Source: Devosia sp. Root413D1
GTDB taxonomy: Bacteria > Pseudomonadota > Alphaproteobacteria > Rhizobiales > Devosiaceae
Reading direction: 5' to 3'
Length of the DNA: 64,000 nt
NCBI RefSeq assembly: GCF_001425235.1
Contig: NZ_LMEA01000011.1
Location: 124,001 to 188,000 of the forward strand
Every line of letters starts with the position of its first letter. The stretch's first letter is position 1. Below, piece after piece: positions 13,034 through 26,008 of this stretch. The notes beneath the pieces were generated by a model. The model was not told where the DNA came from. It ran no database searches and saw only the letters and a list, made by a program, of their open reading frames with translations. The translations under genes were made by a program, and so were the position numbers.

Positions 13034-14698
13034 TCAGCCCCCGAGCTTGCCCTCAGTGCCGTAGACCTCCAGCGCACGTTCTCGCGTCAGATAGCCATCG
13101 CGGATATCGCGGGCGATCGCGTCGTTGCTGCGATCCCTGGGATCGCCATAGCCGCCACCATTGGCGGTGACGATGCGGATCACGTCGCCGGTGTTCACCA
13201 CCACGTTCGTTGCGAACGCATAGCGCTCACTGCGTCCATCGGTGCGGCGCAACTCGACATAGTTGAGCGAGCCGTCGAGGCCGCCGGCGACGCCCCATGG
13301 GGGTATGGTGGAGCGGGTATAGCCGAGCGACAGGAAGTTGTTGTCGCCACGCACCCGGTAATGCACCTCGATGCCCTTGCCGCCACGCCACTGCCCCTCG
13401 CCGCCAGGCTCGGCATTGAGCGCCACCTGGTCGACGAACATGCCATAGCGGGCTTCGGCGATCTCGGCCGGGCAGTTAAAGGTTTCGCCGTGGAAGCCGG
13501 AGAACTGTCCCGAATTGCCGTCATTGCCGTCCCAGCCGCCCCAGCCACCCACCTGTGGCTCGACGATGGTGTAATGGCGGCCGGTATCGGGGTGCTTGCC
13601 GCCCATCACGGTGCCGCAGATCGAGGCGAAGTTGCCGGCCGGCACGATGCCGCCGAAATGGTGCGCCAGCGCCCTGAGCGTCATGTCGAACAAGCGGATC
13701 TCGACCTCGGAATAGTAGCCGAGCGCGCCCGGTTCGACGACGTGGAAGATGGTGCCGGGCTCGGTGATCACCTCGAGCGGACGGAAGCAGCCGCCATTGC
13801 CCGGGCCGTCCGGATCGGTGAAATCCTTGAAGGCCAGCTGCAGGGCGATCTCGGAGCCCTCGCGTGAGGAGTTCTTGGAGCCCGATTGCTTGGGGTTACC
13901 GCGCAGGTCGACGGTGAACTTTTCCGGCGTGATGACGAGGCGAACATTATGCACCGCGCCGTCGTCCTGGGTTTCCGAATAGTCGTAGGTGCCGGCCGGC
14001 ATCTGCCCGAGCGCCGCCAGCGCCCGGCGCTCGCCCAGGTCCATGTAGTCAGCCACAGCGGCGAGGTAGGTATCGGCGCCGTATTTGGCGAGCAGTTCCT
14101 GCACGCGGCGCTCACCGATGCGCAGCCCCGCAATGCCGGCCCACAGGTCGCCCTTGAGGAAATCGGGCAGCCGGGTGTTGACGTAGAGGATGTCGAACAC
14201 CGCCTGGTTCGCGACGCCCTGGTCGAACAGCTTGACCGCCGGGATGCGCACGCCTTCCTGAAAAATCTCGGTGGCGTCGGCCGACATCGAACCGGGGACG
14301 TTCCCGCCCACATCGTTCCAGTGTGCGATGTTGGCGACCCAGGCGACGATCCGGTCGCCTGAAAACACCGGCGAGGTCAGCACCATGTCGTTGAGATGCG
14401 TTACGCCGCCGTAATAGGGGTCGTTGGAAGCATAGAGGTCGCCCGGCCGGACGCTCTCCAGCGGAAACTTCTTGAGGATACCTTTGACCGCCTTGTCGAG
14501 CACGCCGATGAAGGCCGGAATGCCGGCGCCGGCCGCGGCGATATCGCCGACTGGATCGAGGATCGACGACGAGAGGTCGAGCACTTCGTAGATGATGGCC
14601 GACATCGACGCCTTGCGCTGCGCCACGAACATTTCGTCGGCGATCGCTTCGAGGGCGTTCTGGATGATGTCAAAGGTGACGGGGTCGTGCTTGCTCAT
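13034..14698 (-). CDS. hyuB: hydantoinase B/oxoprolinase-family protein
   Basis: A 554-residue HyuB-type subunit. Members of this family form complexes with HyuA-type proteins and hydrolyse or carboxylate cyclic amides and ketones (5-oxoproline, N-methylhydantoin, acetone, acetophenone) with ATP. Metal-site motifs are visible: RPGDLYASNDPYYGG (84-98) and HLNDM (101-105), then HWNDVGG and the terminal GGGYGDPRDR. The length equals that of N-methylhydantoinase B. It lies 6 bp downstream of hyuA and ends the operon. Substrate: a cyclic amide or lactam is likely, but the exact compound is not deducible. Confidence 0.9.
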   Translation of the reverse strand: MSKHDPVTFDIIQNALEAIADEMFVAQRKASMSAIIYEVLDLSSSILDPVGDIAAAGAGIPAFIGVLDKAVKGILKKFPLESVRPGDLYASNDPYYGGVTHLNDMVLTSPVFSGDRIVAWVANIAHWNDVGGNVPGSMSADATEIFQEGVRIPAVKLFDQGVANQAVFDILYVNTRLPDFLKGDLWAGIAGLRIGERRVQELLAKYGADTYLAAVADYMDLGERRALAALGQMPAGTYDYSETQDDGAVHNVRLVITPEKFTVDLRGNPKQSGSKNSSREGSEIALQLAFKDFTDPDGPGNGGCFRPLEVITEPGTIFHVVEPGALGYYSEVEIRLFDMTLRALAHHFGGIVPAGNFASICGTVMGGKHPDTGRHYTIVEPQVGGWGGWDGNDGNSGQFSGFHGETFNCPAEIAEARYGMFVDQVALNAEPGGEGQWRGGKGIEVHYRVRGDNNFLSLGYTRSTIPPWGVAGGLDGSLNYVELRRTDGRSERYAFATNVVVNTGDVIRIVTANGGGYGDPRDRSNDAIARDIRDGYLTRERALEVYGTEGKLGG

Positions 14699-14704
14699 GT
14701 CGCT

Positions 14705-16774
14705 TCAGCCCTCAATCGCGATGTGGATGTTGCCGTAGTCGTCGATGCTGACACGGTTGCCCGGCTGGATGACCACCGTGGTGCCCGGATCCTCGATCAC
14801 CGCCGGGCCGGCAAAGCTCATGCCGGGCTCAAGCCTCGTGCCGTCGTAAATGGTGGCCTCATGGACGCCGTCGGTCGCGTAGTCGACGTCGCGGCGGCCC
14901 TTGATCGCGGCCTCGAGGCTGGCGCCGGTCCGCTCCAGTCTGGTGATCTCGAGCTTGCCGACCTCCGAGGCCGCCACCAGGTGCAGCCCGATGATCTCGA
15001 CGCCGGCGTCGAGCCGATAGGTGTATTCGCGCTCATAGGCATCGTGGAAGTTGGCGATCAGTTCGGCCATGGAGACCGGGCTCGGCTCGCCCGCCGGCAG
15101 CGGCACTTCGACGGCGAACTCCTGGTTCTGGTAGCGCACGCGGACGAGACCGGTGATGCTCACCTTGTCGGCCGGCACGTTGCCGCGCGCGAAATCCGCG
15201 ATGGCACGTTCGCGGGTGCGGCTCAGCAGGCCAGACAGGCTCTGGTGGTCGTCAGCATCCATCAGCTGGGTGACGAAATAATCGCGCCTGAGGTCCGACA
15301 TCAGCATGCCCCAGGCCGAGAACACCGAAGCGCCACGCGGCACCACGACCTTCTTGACGCCCAGTTCCTTGCCAAGCTCGGCGCCATGCATCGGACCGCC
15401 ACCGCCAAACACCACCATGGTGAAATCGCGCGGATCGTACCCGCGGTTTACCGACACCAGCTTCAGCGCGTTGACCATGTTCGAATTGGCGATGCGCACG
15501 ATGCCGCGCGCCACCTCGATATTGCTCATCTTGAGCTTGCCGCCGAGCTCGGCCAGCGCGCCGTTCAGCGCCTCCATGTCGGCGACGACGTTGCCGCCGA
15601 CGAAGTAGTCCTTGTTGATGCGGCCGAGCGCCAGGTTGGCGTCGGTGGTGGTGGCGTTCACGCCGCCGCGGCCATAGGCGGCCGGGCCCGGCACCGCGCC
15701 GGCGGAGCGGGGGCCGACATGCAGCTTGTCGAACTCGTCGACCCAGGCGATGGAGCCGCCGCCATTGCCGATCTCGACCAGGTCGACCACCGGCACCATG
15801 ATCGGGTAGCCGGCCGACTTGCGGTCGCGCTCGATCCAGTAGTCGGTCTTGATGGTGACATGGCCGCCCTTGATCAGCGAGCATTTGGCGGTGGTGCCGC
15901 CGATATCGAGCGCCAGCACGTCGGGCTCGCCGATAATGCGGCCGAGCTCGGCCGCACCCCAGAAGCCCGAGGCCGGGCCGGATTCGACCATGGTGATCGG
16001 TGTCTGCTTGATCGAGTCCACGGTATCAACGCCGCAGTTGGACTGCATGACATAGAGCCCGCCGGCATAGCCCTGGTCGCGAAGGCCCGTTTCCAGCCGC
16101 TCGAGATAGCGTTGCGCCGCCGGCTGCACATAGGCCGACAGGATCGTCGTCGAGGTGCGCTCGTATTCACGCCATTCGCGGGTGATCTGGTGCGAGGCGA
16201 CGGCGATCACCTCCGGCCACAGCCGGCGCAGCTCGGCCAGCGCCGCCTCTTCATGTGACGGATTGGCATAGGCGTGGATAAAGCAGATGGCGACGGCCGT
16301 AACGCCATCGGCCTTGAAGTCGGCAACGATCGGCGCGAGGTCTGCCAGGTCGAGCGGTACCTGCTCGTTGCCATGGAAATCGATGCGGCCGGCGAGCTCC
16401 CGGCGCAGGTAACGCGCGACGAAGGGTTCGGGCTTCTTGTACTTGAGGTTGAAGAAATCCGGGCGGTTGCCGCGGCCGATTTCCAAGACGTCGCGGAACC
16501 CTCTCGTGGTGATCAGGCCAACCTTGGCGCCTTTGCGCTCGGTCAGCGAGTTGATCACCACGGTGGTGCCATGAGCGAGGAAATCGAGGCTATCGAGCGC
16601 GACGCCCGCCTTGGCCAGCACATCGAGCACGCCCTTCTCGAACTCGGGCGGAGTGGTGTCCGACTTTTCGGTGCGCACGCTCTGCGCGCCAGTGCGCGTG
16701 TCGGTTTCGAAGTACACGAGGTCGGTGAACGTGCCGCCGACATCGGTGGCCACGCGGGTAATCTTGTCGGACAT
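14705..16774 (-). CDS. hyuA: hydantoinase A/oxoprolinase-family ATPase subunit
   Basis: A 689-residue HyuA-type protein with an actin-like ATPase fold that activates the amide carbonyl with ATP and works with HyuB. Visible motifs: DVGGTFTD (11-18, phosphate 1), AHGTTVVIN (67-75), the catalytic-domain NCGVDTVD, and LDIGGTTAK (289-297). The C-terminal RLDAGVEIIGLHLVA region is typical. The length (about 690) matches N-methylhydantoinase A and acetone carboxylase beta; a fused 5-oxoprolinase would be about 1200. It begins 68 bp after the ABC permease stop, in the same leftward operon. Confidence 0.92.
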   Translation of the reverse strand: MSDKITRVATDVGGTFTDLVYFETDTRTGAQSVRTEKSDTTPPEFEKGVLDVLAKAGVALDSLDFLAHGTTVVINSLTERKGAKVGLITTRGFRDVLEIGRGNRPDFFNLKYKKPEPFVARYLRRELAGRIDFHGNEQVPLDLADLAPIVADFKADGVTAVAICFIHAYANPSHEEAALAELRRLWPEVIAVASHQITREWREYERTSTTILSAYVQPAAQRYLERLETGLRDQGYAGGLYVMQSNCGVDTVDSIKQTPITMVESGPASGFWGAAELGRIIGEPDVLALDIGGTTAKCSLIKGGHVTIKTDYWIERDRKSAGYPIMVPVVDLVEIGNGGGSIAWVDEFDKLHVGPRSAGAVPGPAAYGRGGVNATTTDANLALGRINKDYFVGGNVVADMEALNGALAELGGKLKMSNIEVARGIVRIANSNMVNALKLVSVNRGYDPRDFTMVVFGGGGPMHGAELGKELGVKKVVVPRGASVFSAWGMLMSDLRRDYFVTQLMDADDHQSLSGLLSRTRERAIADFARGNVPADKVSITGLVRVRYQNQEFAVEVPLPAGEPSPVSMAELIANFHDAYEREYTYRLDAGVEIIGLHLVAASEVGKLEITRLERTGASLEAAIKGRRDVDYATDGVHEATIYDGTRLEPGMSFAGPAVIEDPGTTVVIQPGNRVSIDDYGNIHIAIEG

Positions 16775-16842
16775 ATCTCAGTCTCTCGTTTGCGCGCCGC
16801 GGTCGGGGGCCGACGGCGCAGTATCCTGGGGGTGGCGCACGC

Positions 16843-17817
16843 TCATCGCTTGTTGCCGGTCGCGGCGAGCGCGACGGCGAGCACGATGATCACACCGGTG
16901 GTCAGGTCCTTGAAGAACGGGTTCACGTTGAGGATGTTGAAGCCGTTGCCGATCAGCGCCATCAGCAGCACGCCGGCCATCGAGCGCCAGATGGCGCCGG
17001 CGCCGCCCATGATCGAGGTGCCGCCCAGGATCACCGCTGCGATCGCCTCGAACTCGTAGCCGGTGCCGGCCTGCGGCTCGCCCATGGAGAGGCGCGACAC
17101 GGTGATCACTCCGGCCAGGCCCGCTGCGCCACCGGAAACCGCGAAGGTGATGATCTTGACCAGGTTGGTGCGGATGCCCGAAAGCAGCGCCGCTTCCTCG
17201 TTGCCGCCCACCGCGAAGATGGCGCGGCCCAGCGTCGTGCGGTTGAGCATGAACATCATCAGCGCCATGAACGCCAGCATCACCAGCACGGCGACATTGA
17301 CCAGGTCGAGCTTGGCGCGGCCGAGCCAGGCAAATTCCTCGACCCGCACCGGGATCAGCTTGCCGTTGGTGATGAGGATGGCCATGCCGCGATAGACGAG
17401 GCTGGTTGCCAGCGTCACGAGAAACGAGTGGACGTTGAAGGCGGTGATGATGATGCCGTTGATCGAGCCCAGCAGGAGCCCGATCAGCGGCGCCGCGATG
17501 ATGGCCACCAGCGGGTCGACATTGACGGCGAGATACGCCGCACTCACTGAGGCGACGCCGAAAATGGCGCCGGTGGAGAGATCGAACCCGCCGCCGATGA
17601 TCACCAGGGTGAGCGCGCAGGCGATGATGAACAGCGGCGTCGACTGGTTGAGGATGTTGAACAGGTTCCGCGGCGTCAGGAACGACGGCGACAGCATGGT
17701 GAGAGCGAGCAGCATCACCGCGATGATGATAAGCACACCATACTGGCGCACGAAGTCGCCGATATCGAAGCGCCGGCGCACGGCGCTGGGTGTCTTGGTG
17801 AGGGTGGTGTCGGCCAT
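16843..17817 (-). CDS. CUT2-type ABC transporter permease (RbsC-like)
   Basis: A 324-residue integral membrane protein with 8-10 hydrophobic segments, of the BPD_transp_2 family used by ribose/xylose-type importers. Diagnostic segments are LVIIGGGFDLSTGAIFGVAS, the coupling stretch FAVGGNEEAALLSGI and AAVILGGTSIMGGAGAIWR. The start ATG overlaps the ATPase stop (TGATG), so the two are translationally coupled. CUT2 systems import pentoses but also autoinducer-2, purines and, in rhizobia, diverse polyols. Its place beside hyuAB suggests import of the compound that hyuAB attacks. Confidence 0.9.
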   Translation of the reverse strand: MADTTLTKTPSAVRRRFDIGDFVRQYGVLIIIAVMLLALTMLSPSFLTPRNLFNILNQSTPLFIIACALTLVIIGGGFDLSTGAIFGVASVSAAYLAVNVDPLVAIIAAPLIGLLLGSINGIIITAFNVHSFLVTLATSLVYRGMAILITNGKLIPVRVEEFAWLGRAKLDLVNVAVLVMLAFMALMMFMLNRTTLGRAIFAVGGNEEAALLSGIRTNLVKIITFAVSGGAAGLAGVITVSRLSMGEPQAGTGYEFEAIAAVILGGTSIMGGAGAIWRSMAGVLLMALIGNGFNILNVNPFFKDLTTGVIIVLAVALAATGNKR

Positions 17818-19352
17818 CAGCTGGCAGCCTCCTGGCGATTGCGTTGGCTGTTCTGTTCGAGAAAGACGCGGGTCAGCGCCGCCTCCACCGTCAGCGCGGC
17901 GGCGGGCTCCTCGGCGAAGATCCGACCTTCGCTGAGCAGGTAGCAGCGATGGGAGAGGTTGATGACTTCCTCGAGCTCGGATGAAATCAGCAGCACGCCG
18001 ACACCCTGCCTCGCCATCTCGACGATGAAATCGTGAATGCGCCGCCGCGCGCCGATATCGACGCCACGCGAGGGCTCGTCGAGGATCAGCAGCTTGGGCT
18101 TGGCAACCGCCCATTTGGACAGCAGCACTTTCTGCTGGTTGCCGCCCGAATAGCGGGCCACCCGGCCGTCGATCGCGCCCGGCACGATGCCGAAATGACC
18201 GATCATCTCGCGCGTCTGCCTGATCTCGGCGCCGCGGTCGAGGATGCCGAAGCGGCTGATCCGGCCGAGCGTGCCAAGGCTTATGTTGAAGCGGGTTGGC
18301 TGCGTCAGCACCAGGCCTTGTTTGCGCCGGTCCTCCGGCACCAGCGCCACACCGGCGGCGATGGCGTCGTGGACCGTGAAGCGGCCGCGCACCGGCGCGC
18401 CCTCGATCAGATACTCGCCGCCGGTGATCCGATCGGCGCCGAATAGGGCGCGCGCCACCTCGGTGCGGCCCGAGCCGACCAGGCCGACCAGCCCGACGAT
18501 CTCGCCCGGGCGGATAACGAGGGAAACATCGGAGAGCCCCGTGCCGGTGCTGACCCCGCGCAGCTCGGCTATCGGCGGCAGCGTTTCGGCCGGGGCGGCG
18601 GGCAGCGCCGGCCAGAGGATTTCGGCCGCCTGCCCGAGCATGGAATCGACCAGCGTCTGTTTGGTCTCGCCCGTCATCGGCGAGGTACGCACCACCTTGC
18701 CGTCGCGCATGATGGTGACGTTGTCGCAATTGGCCAGGATGTGGTCGAGGAAGTGGCTGACATAGATCACAGTCTTGCCCTGCCCCTTCAGCCGCCGGAT
18801 CACCTCATGCAGGCGGTCGGCCTCGTCCTCCGTCAGCGACGAAGTCGGCTCGTCCATGATGATGACCTGCGCATCGCGGGCGATGGCGCGCATGATCTCG
18901 ACCTTCTGGCGCTCGGCGATGCGTAGCGTCGCCACCTTGGCGAGCGGATCGATGCCGAAATCGCAGGCCTTCTCCAACGCTGCGAAACGGGCGGTGTCGC
19001 CGCCGACGAGGATGCCGGCGCGCTGGCTCTCGCGGCCGAGAAACACGTTCTGCACCACGTTGAGCTCGGGCGCGAGCTGCAGCTCCTGGTGGATCATGGC
19101 GACGCCAAGACCCAACGCGTCGCGCGGCGAAAAGCGCGCCACCCGGGCGCCCAGGATTTCAACCTCCCCCTCGTCCGGCATGTAATAGCCACCGATGATC
19201 TTGCCGAGGCTCGATTTGCCGGCGCCATTCTCGCCGACCAGCGCGTGCACGGTGCCCGCGGCGATCTCGACGTCGATGCCCTCGAGGATGCGCGTCCCGC
19301 CAAAGCTCTTGGCGACTCCGCGCACCCGAACGGCGATGCTTGGCGTGGTCAT
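17817..19352 (-). CDS. CUT2-type ABC transporter ATP-binding protein (RbsA-like)
   Basis: A 511-residue tandem ATPase. The first nucleotide-binding domain has Walker A GENGAGKSS (40-48) and Walker B VIIMDEPTSSL; the second has the degenerate Walker A GLVGSGRTE normal for RbsA relatives, signature SGGNQQKVLLSKW and Walker B LLILDEPSRGVD. It energises import by the adjoining permease. It follows the binding-protein gene after 73 bp and overlaps the permease start. Confidence 0.93.
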   Translation of the reverse strand: MTTPSIAVRVRGVAKSFGGTRILEGIDVEIAAGTVHALVGENGAGKSSLGKIIGGYYMPDEGEVEILGARVARFSPRDALGLGVAMIHQELQLAPELNVVQNVFLGRESQRAGILVGGDTARFAALEKACDFGIDPLAKVATLRIAERQKVEIMRAIARDAQVIIMDEPTSSLTEDEADRLHEVIRRLKGQGKTVIYVSHFLDHILANCDNVTIMRDGKVVRTSPMTGETKQTLVDSMLGQAAEILWPALPAAPAETLPPIAELRGVSTGTGLSDVSLVIRPGEIVGLVGLVGSGRTEVARALFGADRITGGEYLIEGAPVRGRFTVHDAIAAGVALVPEDRRKQGLVLTQPTRFNISLGTLGRISRFGILDRGAEIRQTREMIGHFGIVPGAIDGRVARYSGGNQQKVLLSKWAVAKPKLLILDEPSRGVDIGARRRIHDFIVEMARQGVGVLLISSELEEVINLSHRCYLLSEGRIFAEEPAAALTVEAALTRVFLEQNSQRNRQEAAS

Positions 19353-19425
19353 GGGCGTCTCCAGAACGGCTCGATGCAGGTGGCCGGGGACGCTTGCGCC
19401 CCCGACAGGAATGTCGCCGTGGCGA

Positions 19426-20415
19426 TCAGCCCTCCCACTCGGCCTTGAAGTCGGGGTTGGCGTCGAGCCATTCCTTGGTGACGATCAGCGGGTTGGTGGC
19501 CTTGGTGGCCGGGTCGATCCAGTTCTCGACCGTCTCGCCCTTCTTGGCCCGGATCAGCGCATCGGCGGCGTAGAACCCCTCCGAATACGGGTAACCGGAA
19601 AGCGTCGCGTCAAACACGCCAGCCTTGATCTTGTCGACGGTGATCTGGTTGAGGCCGCCGCCGATCAGGTAGATCGGCTCGATCGGGATGCCGGCATCGG
19701 CGAGCGCGATCTCGACACCCAGAAGGTGCTGGTCGGCGTTCGAGAGCACTACGTCGATCTTGGGGTTCGCCTGGATGATGTCCTGGAACGCAGTCAGCGA
19801 CGCATCAGGGCTGTAGCTGCCTTCGCCGGTGGCGACGACTTTGATGTTGGCGTGCTGGCTCAGCACGGTCTCGAAGCTCTTGTAGCGCAGGTTGTCGAAC
19901 GGAAACTGCAACTGGCCGATCATGATCACCACGTTGCAGGGATCCTTGTCGGCGCAGAACTTCACCACTTCCTCGGCCTGGGCCGTGGCGCCGTCCACCG
20001 GGTTGGAGGCAACCGTGGTGGTGAGGCCAGCGACCTGCGGGGTCATCACCGTCAGTTCCGGGCCGACCGGGAACAGCGTCGAGGCGACGAGCAGGCCTTC
20101 CTTGGTCGCTTCTTCGAGCGCGGTGGCGATGCCGACCGTATCGTTGGGAGCAATGATGATGCCGTCGAAGCGACCGCCGGCGATGATGTCTTCCACCTGC
20201 TTGTACTGGGTGGCGGCATTGAACTCGCCGTCGAAGATTTCGACCTCGACGCCGCCGGCCTTCTCTGCGGCAGCCTTCACGCCCTGCCAGGTCGCATCAT
20301 TGTAGCCGTTCTGGCTCGATGCGGCGAGGAAGGCCAGGCGGATCGGCTCCTGGGCCATGGCGGTGGCGGGGATGAGGCACGTGGCCAGCAATGCCGCGGC
20401 GATGAGTTTATGCAT
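19426..20415 (-). CDS. periplasmic sugar-binding-type protein (RbsB-like)
   Basis: A 329-residue Peripla_BP_4 solute-binding protein. A cleavable signal peptide (MHKLIAAALLATCLIPATAMA, cut before QEP at about 21) precedes the mature protein. IRLAFLAASSQNGYNDATWQGVKAAAE is the usual first strand-loop, FDGIIIAPND and VVLSNADQHLLG the hinge regions. The ATG at 20415 has AGGAGAG at a good distance; the longer frame is unlikely. It captures the substrate for the adjoining permease/ATPase. The mature protein lacks obvious clues to the ligand, and association with amidohydrolase, GAF and hyuAB genes is unusual for a sugar importer. Confidence 0.92.
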   Translation of the reverse strand: MHKLIAAALLATCLIPATAMAQEPIRLAFLAASSQNGYNDATWQGVKAAAEKAGGVEVEIFDGEFNAATQYKQVEDIIAGGRFDGIIIAPNDTVGIATALEEATKEGLLVASTLFPVGPELTVMTPQVAGLTTTVASNPVDGATAQAEEVVKFCADKDPCNVVIMIGQLQFPFDNLRYKSFETVLSQHANIKVVATGEGSYSPDASLTAFQDIIQANPKIDVVLSNADQHLLGVEIALADAGIPIEPIYLIGGGLNQITVDKIKAGVFDATLSGYPYSEGFYAADALIRAKKGETVENWIDPATKATNPLIVTKEWLDANPDFKAEWEG

Positions 20416-20512
20416 GCGTTCTCTCCTGTCGGGACGGCTGTCCCGCTCCTGTTGCGTTCCCTTGGGCCCGTGATGACCGGACCACGTAATGCGCCGCCTG
20501 CGAGGCAGCGAG

Positions 20513-21052
20513 TTATCCTTCCATTGCCGCCACCGCGGTGTCGGTTCCGTGGAAGTTGGCGCCTTCCGACCCAGCAAGGTCGAGCAAAAGAAAGGCGAGT
20601 GTCGCCACCGGTTGCCAGGCAAGCGCCAGCGCCACCCGGTCGGTGGTGAAATGTCCCTGGCGGTGCAGGAGGTTGATGGTGCCGATCACGCGGCCATCGG
20701 CGATCGCCGGCAGGTTCATGTTGGATTCGAACCCCAGCTGCTGGATTTTCTGCCAGTCGAAGAACACCGTGGCGATCTCCTCGATGCTGGTCGAGGAGAA
20801 CGGGCGGCGGCCTTCGATCACCGTCTCGAAGTAGCGGTTGCGGTCGAGCCGCTTGAAATTGCCCGTCGGGTAGGCTGCCGCATCGTCGGTCCACACCCGG
20901 CGTGAGCGCATCTGCTTGAGATCGTAGACCGAAGCGGTGGTGAGGAGTGAGCCGGCCGCCTGGTGGATACCCGCCCGGGCATAGGCGAACACCGCCTCGG
21001 CGGCGTGCTCGCCGGCTGCCAATCTGAAGGCATGCGCGAGGTCAGGCGTCAT
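20513..21052 (-). CDS. GAF-domain protein
   Basis: A 179-residue soluble protein that appears to be a single GAF-like domain: VYDLKQMRSRRVWTDDAAAYPTGNFKRLD forms the early strands and ESNMNLPAIADGRVIGTINLLHRQGHFTTDRVALALAWQ is the diagnostic GAF end (strand, VIGTINL, then helix). No output domain is attached, so it is either a ligand-binding partner or an enzyme of the free-methionine-sulfoxide-reductase type, though the cysteines of that enzyme are absent (I see none). Its start overlaps the amidohydrolase stop by 4 bp, so it is translationally coupled and belongs to the pathway. Confidence 0.75.
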   Translation of the reverse strand: MTPDLAHAFRLAAGEHAAEAVFAYARAGIHQAAGSLLTTASVYDLKQMRSRRVWTDDAAAYPTGNFKRLDRNRYFETVIEGRRPFSSTSIEEIATVFFDWQKIQQLGFESNMNLPAIADGRVIGTINLLHRQGHFTTDRVALALAWQPVATLAFLLLDLAGSEGANFHGTDTAVAAMEG

Positions 21053-22281
21053 GCGCGCCTCCGGTCATGCGCCACCACGCCGTCCTTGACCACCAGCTTC
21101 AGGTGCTCGGCCGGACGCCCCAGCGCCGCGATGTCGGTGAACGGGTCGACGTCGAAGGCCACCAGGTTGGCGCGCGCCCCGGCCGCCATGGTGCCGATCT
21201 CGCCCTCCATGCGGCAAAGCCGTGCGCCGGCGTCCCACATACCGCTGAGGATTTCCTTCGGCGTCAGCACCTCGGCGAGCAGCGAAAACTCGAGTCCGCC
21301 ATATTTGCGCAACTGGCCCAACAGGTCCGTGCCGAAGGCCATGGGCAGGCCTGCCCTGCGCATGATGCCGAGCGAGTTTCGGCCGCCATCGCGTACCACG
21401 TCCAGCTTCAGTTGCTCAGCCTCGCCGAGGCCGAGCTGCGCCCCCTCGAGCTTGAGGCCCTCGTAGGCCGCCAATGTCGGGATGGCGATGCAGCCCGCTT
21501 CAGCCGCCATTGCCGCCGTCTCGGCGCCGATCAGGTTGCAGTGCTCGAGCGACTTGACGCCCAGCTTCACACAGCGGCGGATCGAGGCATCGGAATAGAC
21601 ATGTGCCGACACATAGGTATTGGCGTTGCCAGCCTCCTCGACCATCGCCCGGATCTCGTCGTCCGAATACTGCAGGCCGTCGATCGGATCGTTCGGCGAG
21701 GAGACACCGCCATTGCCCATCACCTTGATGAAGCGGGCACCTTCCTTGATCATCTTGCGGCAGGCGCGGCGCACCTCGTCGACGCCGTCGACCAGCACGC
21801 CCATGTTGCCGACGCGCCAGCCCAGGGTGTCGGGGCGGCTGTCGGTGCGCTGACGCAGGTCCGTATGCCCGCCGGTCATCGACAGCCCCTTGCCGCAGAT
21901 GACCAGGTCCGGCCCGGCAATCAGCCCTTCGTTGACGCCGCGCACGAGCCCGTAGTCGGCGCCGCCGAGATCCCGCACCGTGGTGAATCCGTCGGCCAGC
22001 AGTTCTTCCATCACCTTGACGGCGCGCACCGCTGCAAGGCTGTCGGGCGCGATGGCATTGGCCCATAGGTCGAGCGACCAGGCCACGACATGGAAATGGC
22101 AGTCGATGAAGCCCGGCATCAGCGTCAGGCCGCCGAGGTCGATCACCTCGTCCCCGGGCAACGCCGTTGCACCGACGCCGATGATCCTGCCGTCACGCAC
22201 CGACACAGTGGTCGACGGGCTCAGCGTCTGCCTGTCGAGGTCGACCAGACGGGCGTTGGTGAAGCTCAGCGCAGCGCTCAT
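21049..22281 (-). CDS. metal-dependent amidohydrolase, imidazolonepropionase/prolidase-like
   Basis: A 410-residue amidohydrolase-superfamily enzyme. The binuclear metal site is complete: HFH in GFIDCHFHVVAW (about 62-64), the bridging Lys in RFIKVMGNGGVSSP, His in YVSAHVYSD, His in LEHCNL, and the catalytic Asp in AFGTDLLG. The sequence resembles the COG1228 group that includes imidazolonepropionase and Zn-dependent Xaa-Pro/Xaa-Arg dipeptidases of the same superfamily. It probably opens or trims an amide in the compound handled by this island. It is the first gene of the leftward operon, preceded by a promoter carrying a GntR-type palindrome. Confidence 0.85.
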   Translation of the reverse strand: MSAALSFTNARLVDLDRQTLSPSTTVSVRDGRIIGVGATALPGDEVIDLGGLTLMPGFIDCHFHVVAWSLDLWANAIAPDSLAAVRAVKVMEELLADGFTTVRDLGGADYGLVRGVNEGLIAGPDLVICGKGLSMTGGHTDLRQRTDSRPDTLGWRVGNMGVLVDGVDEVRRACRKMIKEGARFIKVMGNGGVSSPNDPIDGLQYSDDEIRAMVEEAGNANTYVSAHVYSDASIRRCVKLGVKSLEHCNLIGAETAAMAAEAGCIAIPTLAAYEGLKLEGAQLGLGEAEQLKLDVVRDGGRNSLGIMRRAGLPMAFGTDLLGQLRKYGGLEFSLLAEVLTPKEILSGMWDAGARLCRMEGEIGTMAAGARANLVAFDVDPFTDIAALGRPAEHLKLVVKDGVVAHDRRRA

Positions 22282-22387
22282 CGGCCAGCCACCGCCAGGT
22301 CACGCGGGGCGGCGTCGCGCCGTCGATGGGGCATCTGGCTCTGCTCGGTGAGGCGCATTGAGGTCCTGCTTGCGACGCTTTCATGTC

Positions 22388-22417
22388 AGTATGAGCGAAT
22401 ATTTAGTTTGTCGACAA
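22388..22417 (-). promoter_or_regulatory. promoter and TTGTCGACAA operator of amidohydrolase operon
   Basis: On the minus strand TTGTCG (-35) is followed after 18 bp by CATACT (-10), about 110 bp upstream of the amidohydrolase start. The 10-bp perfect palindrome TTGTCGACAA (22408-22417) overlaps the -35. TTGT-N2-ACAA palindromes are the usual operator type of GntR regulators with FCD domains, and such a regulator lies in this island. A second, nearly identical element is at 23778. Binding is inferred. Confidence 0.6.
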
Positions 22418-22455
22418 GATGGATTCTGAGCCGGATCCTGCCCAAACTTTGGCGG

Positions 22456-23724
22456 TCATGCTGCCTTCAGGCCGCACCATCTGGCTACGAAACGGGCAAT
22501 CACCTCGGTGGTTGTCTGTAAGCTGGCGAGTTCGACCGCCTCCGACGGTGCGTGCATGCCGCGGGCGTTGCCGCCGTAGCAAAGCGCCGGAATGCCGTAA
22601 TAGAGGTCGTAGAACCGGGTATCGCTGGTGGCCGTCATGCTGAGCGGCTCGAGCTCCCGGCCGAGCAGTTCGGCGTGGATACCGGCCAGCAGCGCCTCGG
22701 CCTCGGTGCCCGGAGCAAAGACGTGGCCATCTGCCTGGAAGCCGATCCAGCTCAGCGCCGGCATCTCGGCTTCTAGCGCGGCGGCGCAACGGCGAACGGC
22801 CTCGCTGACACGCTCGCGCACATCGGCGAGGCTATGCCCCGGCAGCACCGACAGCCGGCACTCGAGTTCGCACCATGACGGGATCGAGCCCAGCCAGTCC
22901 CCGCCCCGGATCTTGCCGGGGTTGAACTTCACCGGGTCGGCAATGGCGCCGAAATATGGGTGCGTCACCGCTTCGGCATTGATCTCGGCCGTCAGGCCCT
23001 TGAGCGCCTCGATATAGGCCATGGCCGCGAGAATGGCGTGCGAACCGGTGGATACGCCTGCGTACACATGGCCCGGCCGGCCAAGGATGCGCAGCCGGAA
23101 CCACACTGAGCCCAGTTCGGCGCGGATGATCTGGTGCCCCATGCTTTCAGGGATGAACGCCGCATCCGCGCGATAGCCCCGCGCCAGCGTCGAAAGCGCG
23201 CCATTGCCGGTGCACTCCTCTTCGCTCACCGTCTCGATATGCACGCGTGAGCCCGGCACGTAGCCGAGCCGGCGCAGCGCATCGAGGGCGAAGACCATGG
23301 CCGAGACACCTGCCTTCATGTCGCCAGTGCCGCGGCCATGCATCCAGCCATCGCGCACTTCTGGCCTGAACGGATCCTGCGACCAAAGCTCGGTCGCCCC
23401 GACCGGCACCACGTCAATATGCCCCATCAGGATCAGGCTTCGCCCGACCGGCGCTTCGACCTGGTGCGTCGCCACCACCTGCACGGCTTTGGAGTAATCG
23501 GCGTCAACCACCGGCGAGTACCCCGTCAGGCCGGCGATCTCCACCTCGTCGATCGTGTACCTGTCGACCGCCCAGCCGCGCGCCGCGAATTCGCCGGCCA
23601 GCCAATCCTGGCACGGGGCCTCGTTCCCGCGCGTGCTGTCGAACGAGGCGAGCTTGGCCAGCCATTCAGTCTGCCGGCCAAACCCTTCTGCCACCGCCGC
23701 GCGGAGCGCTGTCGGATCGATCAT
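22456..23724 (-). CDS. M20-family metallopeptidase (ArgE/DapE/ACY1 type)
   Basis: A 422-residue zinc hydrolase removing acyl or carbamoyl groups from amino acids or cleaving small peptides. Metal ligands: H102 and D104 (MGHIDVVP), D135 (GRGTGDMKAG), the EE pair in SEEECTGNG, and a C-terminal His/Gly block GGNARGMHAPSE. The dimerisation lid lies between about 190 and 300. The ATG at 23724 has GAGGAG nine bases upstream. It resembles ArgE/acetylornithine deacetylase-like members and N-carbamoyl hydrolases; after a hydantoinase step, an N-acyl or N-carbamoyl amino acid would be a logical substrate, but this is inference. Confidence 0.9.
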   Translation of the reverse strand: MIDPTALRAAVAEGFGRQTEWLAKLASFDSTRGNEAPCQDWLAGEFAARGWAVDRYTIDEVEIAGLTGYSPVVDADYSKAVQVVATHQVEAPVGRSLILMGHIDVVPVGATELWSQDPFRPEVRDGWMHGRGTGDMKAGVSAMVFALDALRRLGYVPGSRVHIETVSEEECTGNGALSTLARGYRADAAFIPESMGHQIIRAELGSVWFRLRILGRPGHVYAGVSTGSHAILAAMAYIEALKGLTAEINAEAVTHPYFGAIADPVKFNPGKIRGGDWLGSIPSWCELECRLSVLPGHSLADVRERVSEAVRRCAAALEAEMPALSWIGFQADGHVFAPGTEAEALLAGIHAELLGRELEPLSMTATSDTRFYDLYYGIPALCYGGNARGMHAPSEAVELASLQTTTEVIARFVARWCGLKAA

Positions 23725-23777
23725 CGTGCCACTCCTCAACTCCAATCGGCACCCCACGTGCGAGACTGGATTTCCCC

Positions 23778-23787
23778 TGTCGACAAA
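23778..23787. promoter_or_regulatory. second TGTCGACA operator between M20 and DapA-family genes
   Basis: TGTCGACAAA on the plus strand; read on the minus strand it gives AGTTTGTCGACAGG, sharing AGTTTGTCGACA with the site at 22405-22416. It lies 54 bp upstream of the M20 start and about 90 bp upstream of the divergent DapA-family start, so one regulator could serve both promoters. Confidence 0.5.
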
Positions 23788-23877
23788 CTGTCGGCTGAAC
23801 CCTATAGGGAGATCACAACGAAGCGCAATATGCTTTGATGAGCCGCTTGATCGCCTTTAGCCGCTGGAGCAGACCCC

Positions 23878-24816
23878 ATGGAAAAGAGCCCGTTCACCGG
23901 GTGCATTCCCGCCCTGATGACCCCGTGCCGCGCCGACCGGACGCCGGATTTCGATGCGCTGGTGCGCAAGGCGAACGAGCTGATCGGGCTCGGCATGTCG
24001 GGCGTCGTCTATTGCGGATCGATGGGCGATTGGCCGCTGCTTACCGACGCTGAGCGCATGGAAGGCGTCGAGCGGCTGGTCAAGGCCGGCATCCCGGTGA
24101 TCGTCGGCACCGGCGCGGTCAACACCAAGGCGGCTGCCGCCCATGCCGCTCATGCACAGCAGGTGGGCGCCGCAGGCCTGATGCTGATCCCGCGCGTCCT
24201 CTCCCGCGGCTCGTCGGCCGCTGCGCAGCACGCGCATTTCAAGGCCCTGCTCTCGGCCGCGCCGGACCTGCCGGCGGTGATCTACAACAGCCCCTACTAT
24301 GGCTTTGCCACCCGCGCCGACCTGTTCTTCGCGCTGCGCGCCGAGCATAAGAACCTGGTGGGCTTCAAAGAATTCGGCGGCGAGGCTGACCTCTCCTACG
24401 CCGCCGAGCACATCACCTCAGCCGATCCGAACCTGACGCTGATGGTGGGCGTCGATACCGCCGTTTATCACGGCTTCATCCAGTGCGGCGCCGCCGGCGC
24501 CATCACCGGCATCGGCAACTGCCTGCCGCGCGAAGTGCTGCACCTTGTGGATTTGTGCATCAAAGGCCAGCAGGGGGACCCCGTGGCGCGCCGCCGCGCC
24601 AGGGAACTCGAAGAGGCGCTGATCACCCTCTCCACCTGGGACGCCGGTCCGGACCTGGTGCTGTTCTTCAAATACCTGCTCGCGCTCAACGGCGAGAAGG
24701 AATACGAGCTTCACTTCAACCAATCCGATGCCCTGAGCCCGGCGCAGCGGCGCTTCGCCGAACAGTCGCTCCAGCGCTTCCGCACCTGGTACTCCGCATG
24801 GTCCGAGGCGGCGTAA
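23878..24816 (+). CDS. DapA/NAL-family lyase or deaminase
   Basis: A 312-residue class I aldolase-fold enzyme of the dihydrodipicolinate synthase family. The Schiff-base lysine is K164 (NLVGFKEFGG) and the catalytic tyrosine Y136 (AVIYNSPYYG). The DapA carboxylate-binding GTTGE is replaced by GSMGD (47-51), so it is unlikely to be DapA itself. The YNSPYYGFATRADLFF region recalls the 1-pyrroline-4-hydroxy-2-carboxylate deaminases of hydroxyproline catabolism, but no other gene of that pathway is present. It is divergent from the M20 gene across 153 bp holding a GntR-type palindrome. Confidence 0.85.
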   Translation: MEKSPFTGCIPALMTPCRADRTPDFDALVRKANELIGLGMSGVVYCGSMGDWPLLTDAERMEGVERLVKAGIPVIVGTGAVNTKAAAAHAAHAQQVGAAGLMLIPRVLSRGSSAAAQHAHFKALLSAAPDLPAVIYNSPYYGFATRADLFFALRAEHKNLVGFKEFGGEADLSYAAEHITSADPNLTLMVGVDTAVYHGFIQCGAAGAITGIGNCLPREVLHLVDLCIKGQQGDPVARRRARELEEALITLSTWDAGPDLVLFFKYLLALNGEKEYELHFNQSDALSPAQRRFAEQSLQRFRTWYSAWSEAA

Positions 24817-24925
24817 GCTGAACGCCCTGCTAGGGCACCGAACACGCAGTCGGCGGTCCTCTCCCGATGGGAGGGGGCGGCCGAGCCATCGCGCCCTCCA
24901 GCCCTCCGGGCTCTGCGCCCCCCGC

Positions 24926-25657
24926 TCACCGCTCCTGTAGCGCCAGGTCGATGCGGCTCGTGGTGTCGCGCGCCATATAGGCCTGGATCTGTCGCACGAT
25001 CTGGGCAGCATGTGTCGCAGCCAGCGCGTCGGCGCGGTCTGCGTCGCGCGCCTCGATGGCGGCAACCATGTCGGCGTGCTCATCGACATACTGGCGCGGC
25101 AGGTCGTCGTCGAACGAGTAATAGAAGACCCGCATCACCCGCCGCCCTTCGTCGAGCAGCCGGGCGAACAACTGCGTGAAATAGACATTGCCCCCCGCCT
25201 CGGCCACCGCGACATGGAAATCGCGGTTGATCGCGATCATCCCCAACGCATCACGGCGTCGCACGGCATCGGCATAAGCCGCCTCGAAGGCCCGGATGCG
25301 CACCAGGTGCTCAGGGCGCCGATGTACCGCTGCGGCGCGCGTGGTGACGCGATACATCAACGTCAATGCCTCGAAATAGACCGGCAGGTTGATGAAATCG
25401 ATCGGCGCGACAATGGTGTTGCGGTTCGGCAAGGTCGTCAGCAGCCCCTCCGCCGCCAGCCGCACCATGGCCTCGCGGATCGGGGTGCGCGACAGATCGA
25501 ACTCTTCCGCCAGCCGCATCTCATCAAGCGGACTGCCCGGTGGCAGGCTGAGATCGAGGATCGATTGCCGCAGCTTCTCGTAGACCTTCTGCACGCCATG
25601 GCCGCGCTTGCGAACCGGCGTACTCGTCTCTGCAGTCGGCCGCGGCTTCTTCGCCAT
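24926..25657 (-). CDS. GntR-family regulator with FCD domain
   Basis: A 243-residue transcription factor. The winged helix-turn-helix spans about 20-88 (GSPLDEMRLAEEFDLSRTPIREAMVRLAAEGLL, the GntR signature). The C-terminal all-helical FCD effector domain has its metal-binding-type residues in RDFHVAVAEAGGN and DEHADMVAAIEARDAD. FCD regulators sense organic acids or amino-acid-like ligands and mostly repress. It lies at the end of the catabolic island, convergent with the DapA-family gene; TTGT-N2-ACAA-like palindromes near 22412 and 23782 are the likely targets. The ATG at 25657 is preferred because it precedes the conserved basic arm. Confidence 0.9.
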   Translation of the reverse strand: MAKKPRPTAETSTPVRKRGHGVQKVYEKLRQSILDLSLPPGSPLDEMRLAEEFDLSRTPIREAMVRLAAEGLLTTLPNRNTIVAPIDFINLPVYFEALTLMYRVTTRAAAVHRRPEHLVRIRAFEAAYADAVRRRDALGMIAINRDFHVAVAEAGGNVYFTQLFARLLDEGRRVMRVFYYSFDDDLPRQYVDEHADMVAAIEARDADRADALAATHAAQIVRQIQAYMARDTTSRIDLALQER

Positions 25658-26008
25658 TCCCAAACCTCGATTCCACCAAACCGTCGGGACAGGCTTCATA
25701 GATAAAGTATCACCGGATTGCCAGACGGCGCGCCGCCTTGATTACTTCCCCCGAGCGTTACTGCCGCAATATGCAGTTGCCGGCAGGCTCGGACCTTCGG
25801 GATTGCTCCTTGGTCCGAGCCTGACGTTGCATGCCTTGTTTTGTGGCCTCGATGATTCTGGCTATCGGTATCTGCGCTGCATTGGCCCGCACGCGCACAG
25901 GCGACGTCTCACCGGCCGGGCGCGCCAGCGTTCCTGCCGCGCCGCAGTGCAATCGTGTGTGGCCGGGCCCGGGACGAGGGCAAGATCGTCGCCGAGCCGC
26001 GTCAACGC
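25658..26008. other. 351-bp intergenic region with a hairpin
   Basis: Lies between the gntR start and the end of the ketosynthase gene. A perfect 10-bp inverted repeat GGCTCGGACC / GGTCCGAGCC is at 25786-25795 and 25812-25821, with a 16-nt loop and no T-run; it may weakly terminate the ketosynthase message. The region to its left must hold the gntR promoter, but no clear palindrome matching the two island operators is seen. A short frame at 25831 begins with a hydrophobic stretch but decays into Arg/Pro-rich sequence and was not called. Confidence 0.5.

Follow-up and report, generated by a model that had tools for sequence, protein, structure and literature searches.

A conserved hydroxyproline-linked gene island of Devosia as a candidate regulon for the use of cyclic dipeptides

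Introduction

Two-subunit, ATP-dependent amidases of the HyuAB family open caprolactam, valerolactam and, by report, 5-oxoproline (passages of PMC6061476 and PMC11033972), and the former remarks, without going further, that some genes named oxoprolinase may in fact encode lactamases or hydrolases of cyclic dipeptides. Microbial diketopiperazine degradation has been studied (PMC3852281), and neither ATP nor oxoprolinase occurs as a word start in the main text of that paper. For 4-hydroxyproline (Hyp), a described system is the pSymB hyp-type locus of Sinorhizobium meliloti, which also holds a GntR regulator, an Ldh-family enzyme, an aldehyde dehydrogenase, an FAD oxidase, a 4-hydroxyproline epimerase (4HypE) and aconitase X, superfamilies that passages of PMC4113996 give for the hydroxyproline pathway. 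We analyzed a 64,000-nucleotide stretch of DNA (the window) from Devosia sp. Root413D1 (contig NZ_LMEA01000011.1, positions 124,001 to 188,000), in which ten genes between positions 13034 and 25699 combine a HyuAB pair with a CUT2-type importer, a lone GAF-domain protein, an amidohydrolase, an M20 peptidase, a HypD-like protein and a GntR/FCD regulator.

An initial annotation of this DNA had proposed a catabolic island that takes up a cyclic or N-acylated, possibly sugar-linked compound and hydrolyzes it in steps; for an amide that is probably cyclic, this proposal is supported. All ten genes of the families it named were recovered by Pfam and NCBIfam profile matches, and the island proved to be conserved as a unit; its interpretation as a whole is partly supported. 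We lean towards the reading that these genes form a regulon through which cyclic dipeptides (2,5-diketopiperazines) with Hyp or proline are used. That the substrate contains proline or hydroxyproline is very probable, and the conserved catabolic set is strongly linked to hydroxyproline and Xaa-Pro peptides. Cyclic dipeptides, which are widespread and stable microbial products, would be the most economical substrate because both a ring opener and peptidases for two orientations are needed.

Results

The initial annotation missed that its DapA-family lyase is HypD-like and that its amidohydrolase is prolidase-like, and these two assignments point to hydroxyproline. The lyase (23878..24816, forward strand; DHDPS family) scored 101 bits against the DapA model, below the cut-off of 206, shared 71.9% identity with its counterpart in the S. 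meliloti locus, and had 4mpq, 2hmc and 5czj as its top PDB matches. Judging by its neighbor genes, the S. meliloti protein is HypD, whose activity we take to be proven. Because of this identity, and because those neighbors fit the hydroxyproline pathway, the island gene most likely encodes HypD, the deaminase of Δ1-pyrroline-4-hydroxy-2-carboxylate (Pyr4H2C). HypD is present in a single copy in the genome (search at E <= 1e-60). Elsewhere in the same genome, contig C8 carries a 4HypE-like gene (68-69%, Cys/Cys), a D-amino-acid oxidase gene (53%) and a GntR gene 66% like that of the island, with no HypD gene in the 9 kb taken. Contig C12 has a second proline-racemase-family gene, whose Ser/Thr pair and Ldh-family neighbor are features that would be expected of trans-3-hydroxyproline dehydratase.

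The amidohydrolase (21049..22281, reverse strand) had as its best PDB matches 3mkv, a putative amidohydrolase (E 7e-95), and 3feq/3n2c, deposited as prolidase (E 2e-93), both over nearly the whole length, and its metal ligands (H62, H64, K186, H227, H247 and D319) were kept in 16 of 16 rows compared. Proximity to solved prolidases and the metal ligands place it among the amidohydrolase-superfamily prolidases. We assume that it is of the cog1228 type and that 3mkv and 3feq/3n2c have Xaa-Pro activity; the island enzyme is prolidase-like and predicted to cut Xaa-Pro or Xaa-Hyp. The M20 peptidase (22456..23724, reverse strand; ATG start, in an open reading frame that opens at 23757) is a PRK06837-type deacylase of the ArgE/DapE family, scoring 532 bits against NF005306 (cut-off 376) and exceeding the ArgE/DapE-family cut-offs. 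No L-N-carbamoylase model was among the best 25 of 47 NCBIfam families, and the carbamoyl removal considered in the initial annotation finds no support in these matches.

HyuB (13034..14698, reverse strand; PF02538, 486 bits) is the metal-site subunit of an ATP-dependent cyclic amidase and HyuA (14705..16774, reverse strand; PF05378, PF01968 and PF19278) its ATP-using subunit. D41, H101, D104 and H126 of HyuB align with the CapB metal ligands Asp41, His99, Asp102 and His124, and the DVGGTFTD and DIGGT motifs of HyuA align with those of CapA (ligands and motifs as listed in part of PMC8453981). With both subunits, the ATP motifs and the metal ligands present, the pair belongs to the ATP-dependent hydantoinase/lactamase (HyuAB) family. 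Its best PDB match was the N-methylhydantoinase 7hk5. Against the caprolactamase equivalogs NF050156 and NF050157 the pair reached 498.8 and 218.3 bits, short of the cut-off of 1000. CapA Lys40 is said in a passage of one paper to be absent from oxoprolinases; position 40 of the solved chain is Gly in the HyuA alignment and the aligned Lys is chain position 32, so that the Lys40 equivalent could not be placed and the sequence stays compatible with oxoprolinase activity. It is gene context that suggests a cyclic dipeptide hydrolase.

The putative ring-opening genes and the hydroxyproline genes share a palindrome, TTGTCGACAA, which was found before hypD, the peptidases, GAF-CUT2 and hyuAB. In the window it lies at 22408..22417, ~131 bp upstream of the prolidase-like gene, and a one-change version, CTGTCGACAA, lies at 23777..23786 between the divergent M20 and hypD genes. 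We counted 53 sites of TGTCGACA in 19 family loci, 40 of them within 250 bp upstream of an island-gene start (hypD, M20, prolidase-like, GAF, binding protein, HyuA, GntR or 4HypE), where the share of such DNA predicts 5.3. Sites in this promoter-like position occurred in 18 of the 19 loci (the exception is L058), and TGTCGACA ranked first among 256 palindromic octamers, the runner-up reaching 15/65. The near-duplicates L034, L036, L037 and L067 had been left out of this sample, in which the close kin L062, L063 and L069 remain; a larger sample of 24 family loci, duplicates included, gave 72 sites in 465 kb vs 34 in 1541 kb of other loci. In L063 and L069, hypD, GAF-CUT2 and hyuAB lie apart, each with its own TGTCGACA site. 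The six other exact sites in this genome were all inside long open frames with no island-type gene recognized beside them, no TGTCGACA was present in the 9 kb taken around the C8 4HypE gene, and shared 10-mers between the window and C8 DNA gave nothing convincing. The ten genes are apparently co-regulated as one regulon, and the GntR/FCD protein (24926..25699, reverse strand; PF00392 and PF07729) is the probable reader of the palindrome. Of the arguments for ring opening as a feeder of hydroxyproline catabolism, the presence of this signal at both hypD and hyuAB is the strongest.

Gene order is conserved as well. The order GntR-HypD-M20-amidohydrolase-GAF-CUT2-HyuA-HyuB was complete in three relatives (L035, L037 and L055) and ran to the contig end in a fourth (L034), while others kept parts; homologues are thus not split in all relatives, and because the same order recurs, the ten-gene unit is more than chance. 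Genome G102 keeps the amidohydrolase, GAF and CUT2 genes with HyuAB of another lineage. In L084 (G633), 4HypE (82%, Cys/Cys), prolidase-like, GAF, CUT2, HyuA, HyuB and aldehyde dehydrogenase genes, the last 66% to that of S. meliloti, follow in one direction, and L077 holds HypD, GntR, prolidase-like, GAF, CUT2, HyuAB and dehydrogenase genes. A plasmid of Devosia neptuniae has HypD, Ldh, M17, CUT2, GntR and HyuAB genes. It also encodes a member of the proline-racemase family whose Ser/Cys dyad is the one described for an assigned 4HypE cluster (in part of PMC4113996), and the GAF similarity on this plasmid is split over two reading frames. Related sets in other genera or families also include 4HypE, D-amino-acid oxidase or semialdehyde dehydrogenase genes.

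Beyond these relatives, HyuB matches listed from 398 phylum and 199 order genomes fell into one group at 40% identity or more, the rest being at 38% or less. A tree of 90 HyuB proteins (L137 unlabelled) placed that of the window in a 34-row group with SH-aLRT support of 100 by a quick method. Peptide importers accompany HyuAB, GAF and M24 genes in L040, L072, L073, L079, L087, L088 and L089, and plasmid members of the clade in Thermus, Qingshengfaniella, Roseateles and Ketogulonicigenium stand with peptide importers and Xaa-Pro or aminopeptidase P-family peptidases. For the clade member of Mycetohabitans we saw no Xaa-Pro-type peptidase, peptide-importer or proline context. More distant HyuAB pairs in Novosphingobium and Parageobacillus also accompany Xaa-Pro peptidases, the Parageobacillus plasmid pair (HyuB 41%) together with racemase, PruA and proline dehydrogenase genes.

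We compared 60 HyuB-selected loci of up to 20 kb, comprising 13 clade loci (at least 40% to the window HyuB) and 47 lower hits picked blind to their neighbors; G130, other known Devosia loci, plasmid loci and two paralogues from the window's genome (L049 and L050) did not enter the comparison. A prolidase-type gene, either M24 or amidohydrolase, was recognized in 8 of 13 clade loci vs 4 of 47 others (Fisher P = 1.7e-4), and in 11 of 11 loci with GAF vs 1 of 49 without it (P = 3.5e-11), kinship being uncorrected in both tests; the single prolidase without GAF is an M24 at 25% identity (L096). The GAF-prolidase pair is not confined to one HyuB lineage, since it also accompanies two or more others (L066/L057/L107/L110 and L132).

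Several further features of clade loci were observed. Asp/Glu-racemase-family genes accompany HyuAB in L040, L070, L073, L075, L076, L078, L079, L080, L087, L088 and L137; by analogy with hydantoin racemase, their products could epimerize ring carbons of cyclic dipeptides. A second, divergent HyuB follows the first pair in L070 (11695-13269), L072 (12913-14463), L087 (11772-13343), L088, L089 and L137; these second HyuBs form their own branch in the tree (support 90), with one HyuA per locus recognized. An enolase-superfamily (MR_MLE) gene in L087 (16313-17413), lying among proline-racemase, D-amino-acid oxidase and HyuAB genes, possibly encodes an epimerase of a Hyp compound. A plasmid of A. 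vitis carries, adjoining its GAF-CUT2-HyuAB set, a second HyuAB pair (L039, 4713-8452) that belongs to a different lineage and is accompanied by a Dpp importer, an Ldh-family enzyme and trans-3-hydroxyproline dehydratase.

The lone GAF protein (20513..21052, reverse strand) matched the Pfam GAF domain weakly, and its AlphaFold2 model (pLDDT 93.2) has a GAF fold, Foldseek giving E 5e-6 to the Lcd1 GAF domain (5w10) and 124 chains at E <= 0.001. It has neither an output domain nor Cys; free Met-R-sulfoxide reductase, a lone GAF enzyme that uses Cys for catalysis, is thereby ruled out. Twelve residues were invariant in 39 rows (G34, L37, R52, Y61, K67, D99, I103, L106, G107, N113, P115 and L129). 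Orthologues at 77% or more were present in 6 of 18 further genomes searched within the genus, which makes the island accessory, and class-wide the protein was found in 24 of 385 genomes at E <= 1e-15, the window's genome included.

Among 27 GAF loci outside the window's genome, 21 had Dpp, branched-chain, TRAP or tricarboxylate-type importer genes and 14 had a gene for a peptidase, gamma-glutamyltranspeptidase or HyuAB, in many cases adjacent to GAF. The counts are our own tally, in which not every neighbor was scanned and some loci are close kin. In a search with the reference set, the only one applied to the controls, 28 GAF-selected loci were examined class-wide, one of which (L146) was not recovered by a later search. 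Six of them had a prolidase-type gene, 11 had oligopeptide-importer genes and 3 had HyuAB, whereas nine arbitrary control windows had none of these gene types. A strict rule that GAF means prolidase, which holds in the HyuB-selected loci, fails class-wide (6/28). In eleven GAF loci (L139, L141, L145, L148, L150, L152, L155, L158, L159, L162 and L163) the gene is near branched-chain, TRAP, tricarboxylate or oligopeptide importers and near M3 oligopeptidase, gamma-glutamyltranspeptidase or prolidase-like genes, with HyuAB not recognized; including the CUT2 importer of the window, the GAF companions are of five importer kinds. Three more GAF paralogues of this genome (L051, L052 and L164, at C12:134601, C12:516650 and C8:30446) lie beside oligopeptide importer genes, one of them with an M24 peptidase (28%), and no HyuAB was recognized in 20 kb. 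The GAF protein looks like a general companion of small-peptide uptake, perhaps sensing the imported or cleaved product.

The importer consists of a permease (16843..17817, PF02653; start read from the sequence), a double ATPase (17817..19352, two ABC_tran stretches) and a periplasmic binding protein (19426..20415, Peripla_BP_4; start MHKLI, in an open reading frame that opens at 20622), all on the reverse strand. The binding protein aligns with ribose- and galactofuranose-type proteins, in which an Asp-Arg pair and a later Asp are, we assume, the sugar contacts. The pair falls on Gly-Pro (YtfQ) or Met-Thr (2ioy), in a register that is uncertain although no Asp-Arg occurs there; two of three alignments (2ioy and 5hsg) place Gly254 at the position of the later Asp. 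LFPxG and GGG/GAG motifs are shared by the window protein and the 21 rows compared. On these residues we reject a sugar importer as very improbable; they fit a neutral, non-sugar ligand.

The eight genes from M20 to HyuB all read leftward, hypD is divergent from M20, and the GntR/FCD gene faces hypD. The overlaps or short gaps described in the initial annotation hold for three junctions (a 4-bp overlap of GAF and amidohydrolase, a 1-bp overlap of permease and ATPase, and a 6-bp gap between HyuA and HyuB); the description is generous for the other four (68, 73, 97 and 174 bp). The flanks belong to other families (TfoX-like on the left; ketoacyl synthase, MarR and IDH on the right).

Discussion

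In the cyclic dipeptide reading, the CUT2-type transporter would import the neutral ring, HyuA would spend ATP to activate one ring amide, and HyuB would hydrolyze the activated amide, so that the linear dipeptide released could have either of two orientations. Xaa-Pro or Xaa-Hyp would be cleaved by the prolidase-like enzyme, and M20 (elsewhere M17 or M24 enzymes) is a candidate for the other orientation. Freed hydroxyproline would be epimerized by 4HypE and oxidized by D-amino-acid oxidase, both presumably from C8 here, and the product would be deaminated by the island HypD. The GntR/FCD protein may control the set through TTGTCGACAA, and the GAF protein could be a cytosolic small-ligand sensor or a helper common to peptide-uptake operons.

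Several points weigh against this reading. Ring substrates of the HyuAB family are diverse, and some of the pattern would also be expected if the substrates were a linear Hyp peptide and a lactam unrelated to it. Genome G097 has HypD, M20 and then GAF, with no prolidase-like, CUT2 or HyuAB genes recognized in 20 kb; six clade loci (L078, L080, L081, L082, L083 and L071) had no M24 or amidohydrolase prolidase recognized in the stretch taken; and Hyp-pathway genes were few, near 3 of 11 GAF loci vs 1 of 49 (P = 0.017, HyuB-selected sample). The Asp/Glu-racemase-family genes of many clade loci also suit hydantoins. A search of this genome at E <= 1e-60, run without a positive control, gave no semialdehyde dehydrogenase of the S. 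meliloti type. Finally, near-matches to the palindrome (up to one mismatch) are not rare in the window (19, with 4.85 expected), which is why we put weight on its position and conservation.

Among the alternatives, the one that survives best, though unlikely, is that the substrate is another amide of Hyp or proline, such as pyroglutamyl-Hyp, N-acyl-Hyp or a Hyp lactam, one part of which HyuAB would attack in the manner of a lactamase or oxoprolinase. The known substrates of the family favor it and the unplaced Lys40 equivalent leaves room for it, whereas HyuA and HyuB fall far below the caprolactamase cut-offs and such substrates have no obvious need for a prolidase-like enzyme plus a second peptidase. 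Distinctly improbable is a hydantoin-type pathway, with HyuAB opening hydantoin or an N-substituted hydantoin, M20 taking off the carbamoyl group, and the HypD-like and amidohydrolase genes carried along as passengers. In its favor are the best match, 7hk5, and the racemase-family genes seen in related loci. Against it, HyuAB is repeatedly accompanied by HypD, 4HypE, proline dehydrogenase, prolidase-type peptidases and peptide importers, hypD has the same operator candidate as hyuAB, and M20 fits ArgE/DapE models, with no carbamoylase model among the best 25 of 47 families.

The sugar-linked compound suggested in the initial annotation (e.g., Amadori or glycosylated Hyp), imported by a true sugar transporter, finds a basis in the CUT2 type and in the frequent glycosylation of plant Hyp. 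We consider it very improbable, since the binding protein lacks the Asp-Arg pair and has Gly for the later Asp while its motifs are kept in 21 rows, 0 of the 10 genes is a glycosidase or sugar kinase by Pfam, and peptide importers are found beside other HyuB-clade members. That two independent modules, HyuAB-CUT2 for a cyclic amide and the Hyp genes, are adjacent by chance would suit those relatives in which the genes lie apart within the locus (L063 and L069), but it is scarcely credible, because the separate genes share one palindrome at promoter-like positions in 18 of 19 loci and a single same-strand run in L084 joins both modules.

Cyclic dipeptides with Hyp or proline are the substrates that we favor. 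A wider claim, on which we are evenly balanced, is that the ATP-dependent diketopiperazine hydrolase so far missing in bacteria is this HyuAB clade, which occurs in Alphaproteobacteria, Betaproteobacteria and Thermus and has more distant kin in Parageobacillus; that in Devosiaceae and other Hyphomicrobiales one palindrome ties it to hydroxyproline catabolism, with CUT2 re-purposed for cyclic dipeptides; and that the GAF-only protein is a peptide-uptake companion whatever the importer type. Among the papers listed by searches of an open-access library we found no named bacterial genes for opening cyclic dipeptides and no gene set described for diketopiperazine ring opening or for the job proposed here, and the remark in the initial annotation that a lone GAF protein and a CUT2 importer in such a set match no known pathway likewise agrees with our search. 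The island supplies candidate enzymes, a transporter, an operator and a regulator, and it offers a substrate for part of the large gene group named hydantoinase or oxoprolinase. It also brings to light a family of lone GAF proteins in which a set of residues is strictly conserved.

The island resembles several known systems and differs from each. With the CapAB/OplAB caprolactamase of Pseudomonas (passages of PMC6061476, PMC8453981 and PMC11033972) it shares two-subunit ATP-dependent opening of a cyclic amide, as predicted from the aligned metal ligands and ATP motifs, whereas its pair scores 499 and 218 bits against equivalog cut-offs of 1000 and is accompanied by prolidase-type and Hyp genes. 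The gene types and families of CUT2 (ribose-type) ABC importers are all present, but the island binding protein is without the sugar-binding Asp/Arg positions. The S. meliloti hyp locus has the HypD-type protein (71.9%) and a GntR regulator in common with the island, and relatives of the island in the wider set also have an Ldh-family enzyme, 4HypE, FAD oxidase and aldehyde dehydrogenase, as this locus does; it differs in having an amino-acid ABC importer, which presumably takes up free Hyp, and no HyuAB, prolidase or GAF gene is annotated in the 19 kb inspected. The amidohydrolase-superfamily prolidases 3mkv and 3feq/3n2c are the best solved relatives of the island enzyme, which keeps their metal ligands and stands together with a ring opener.

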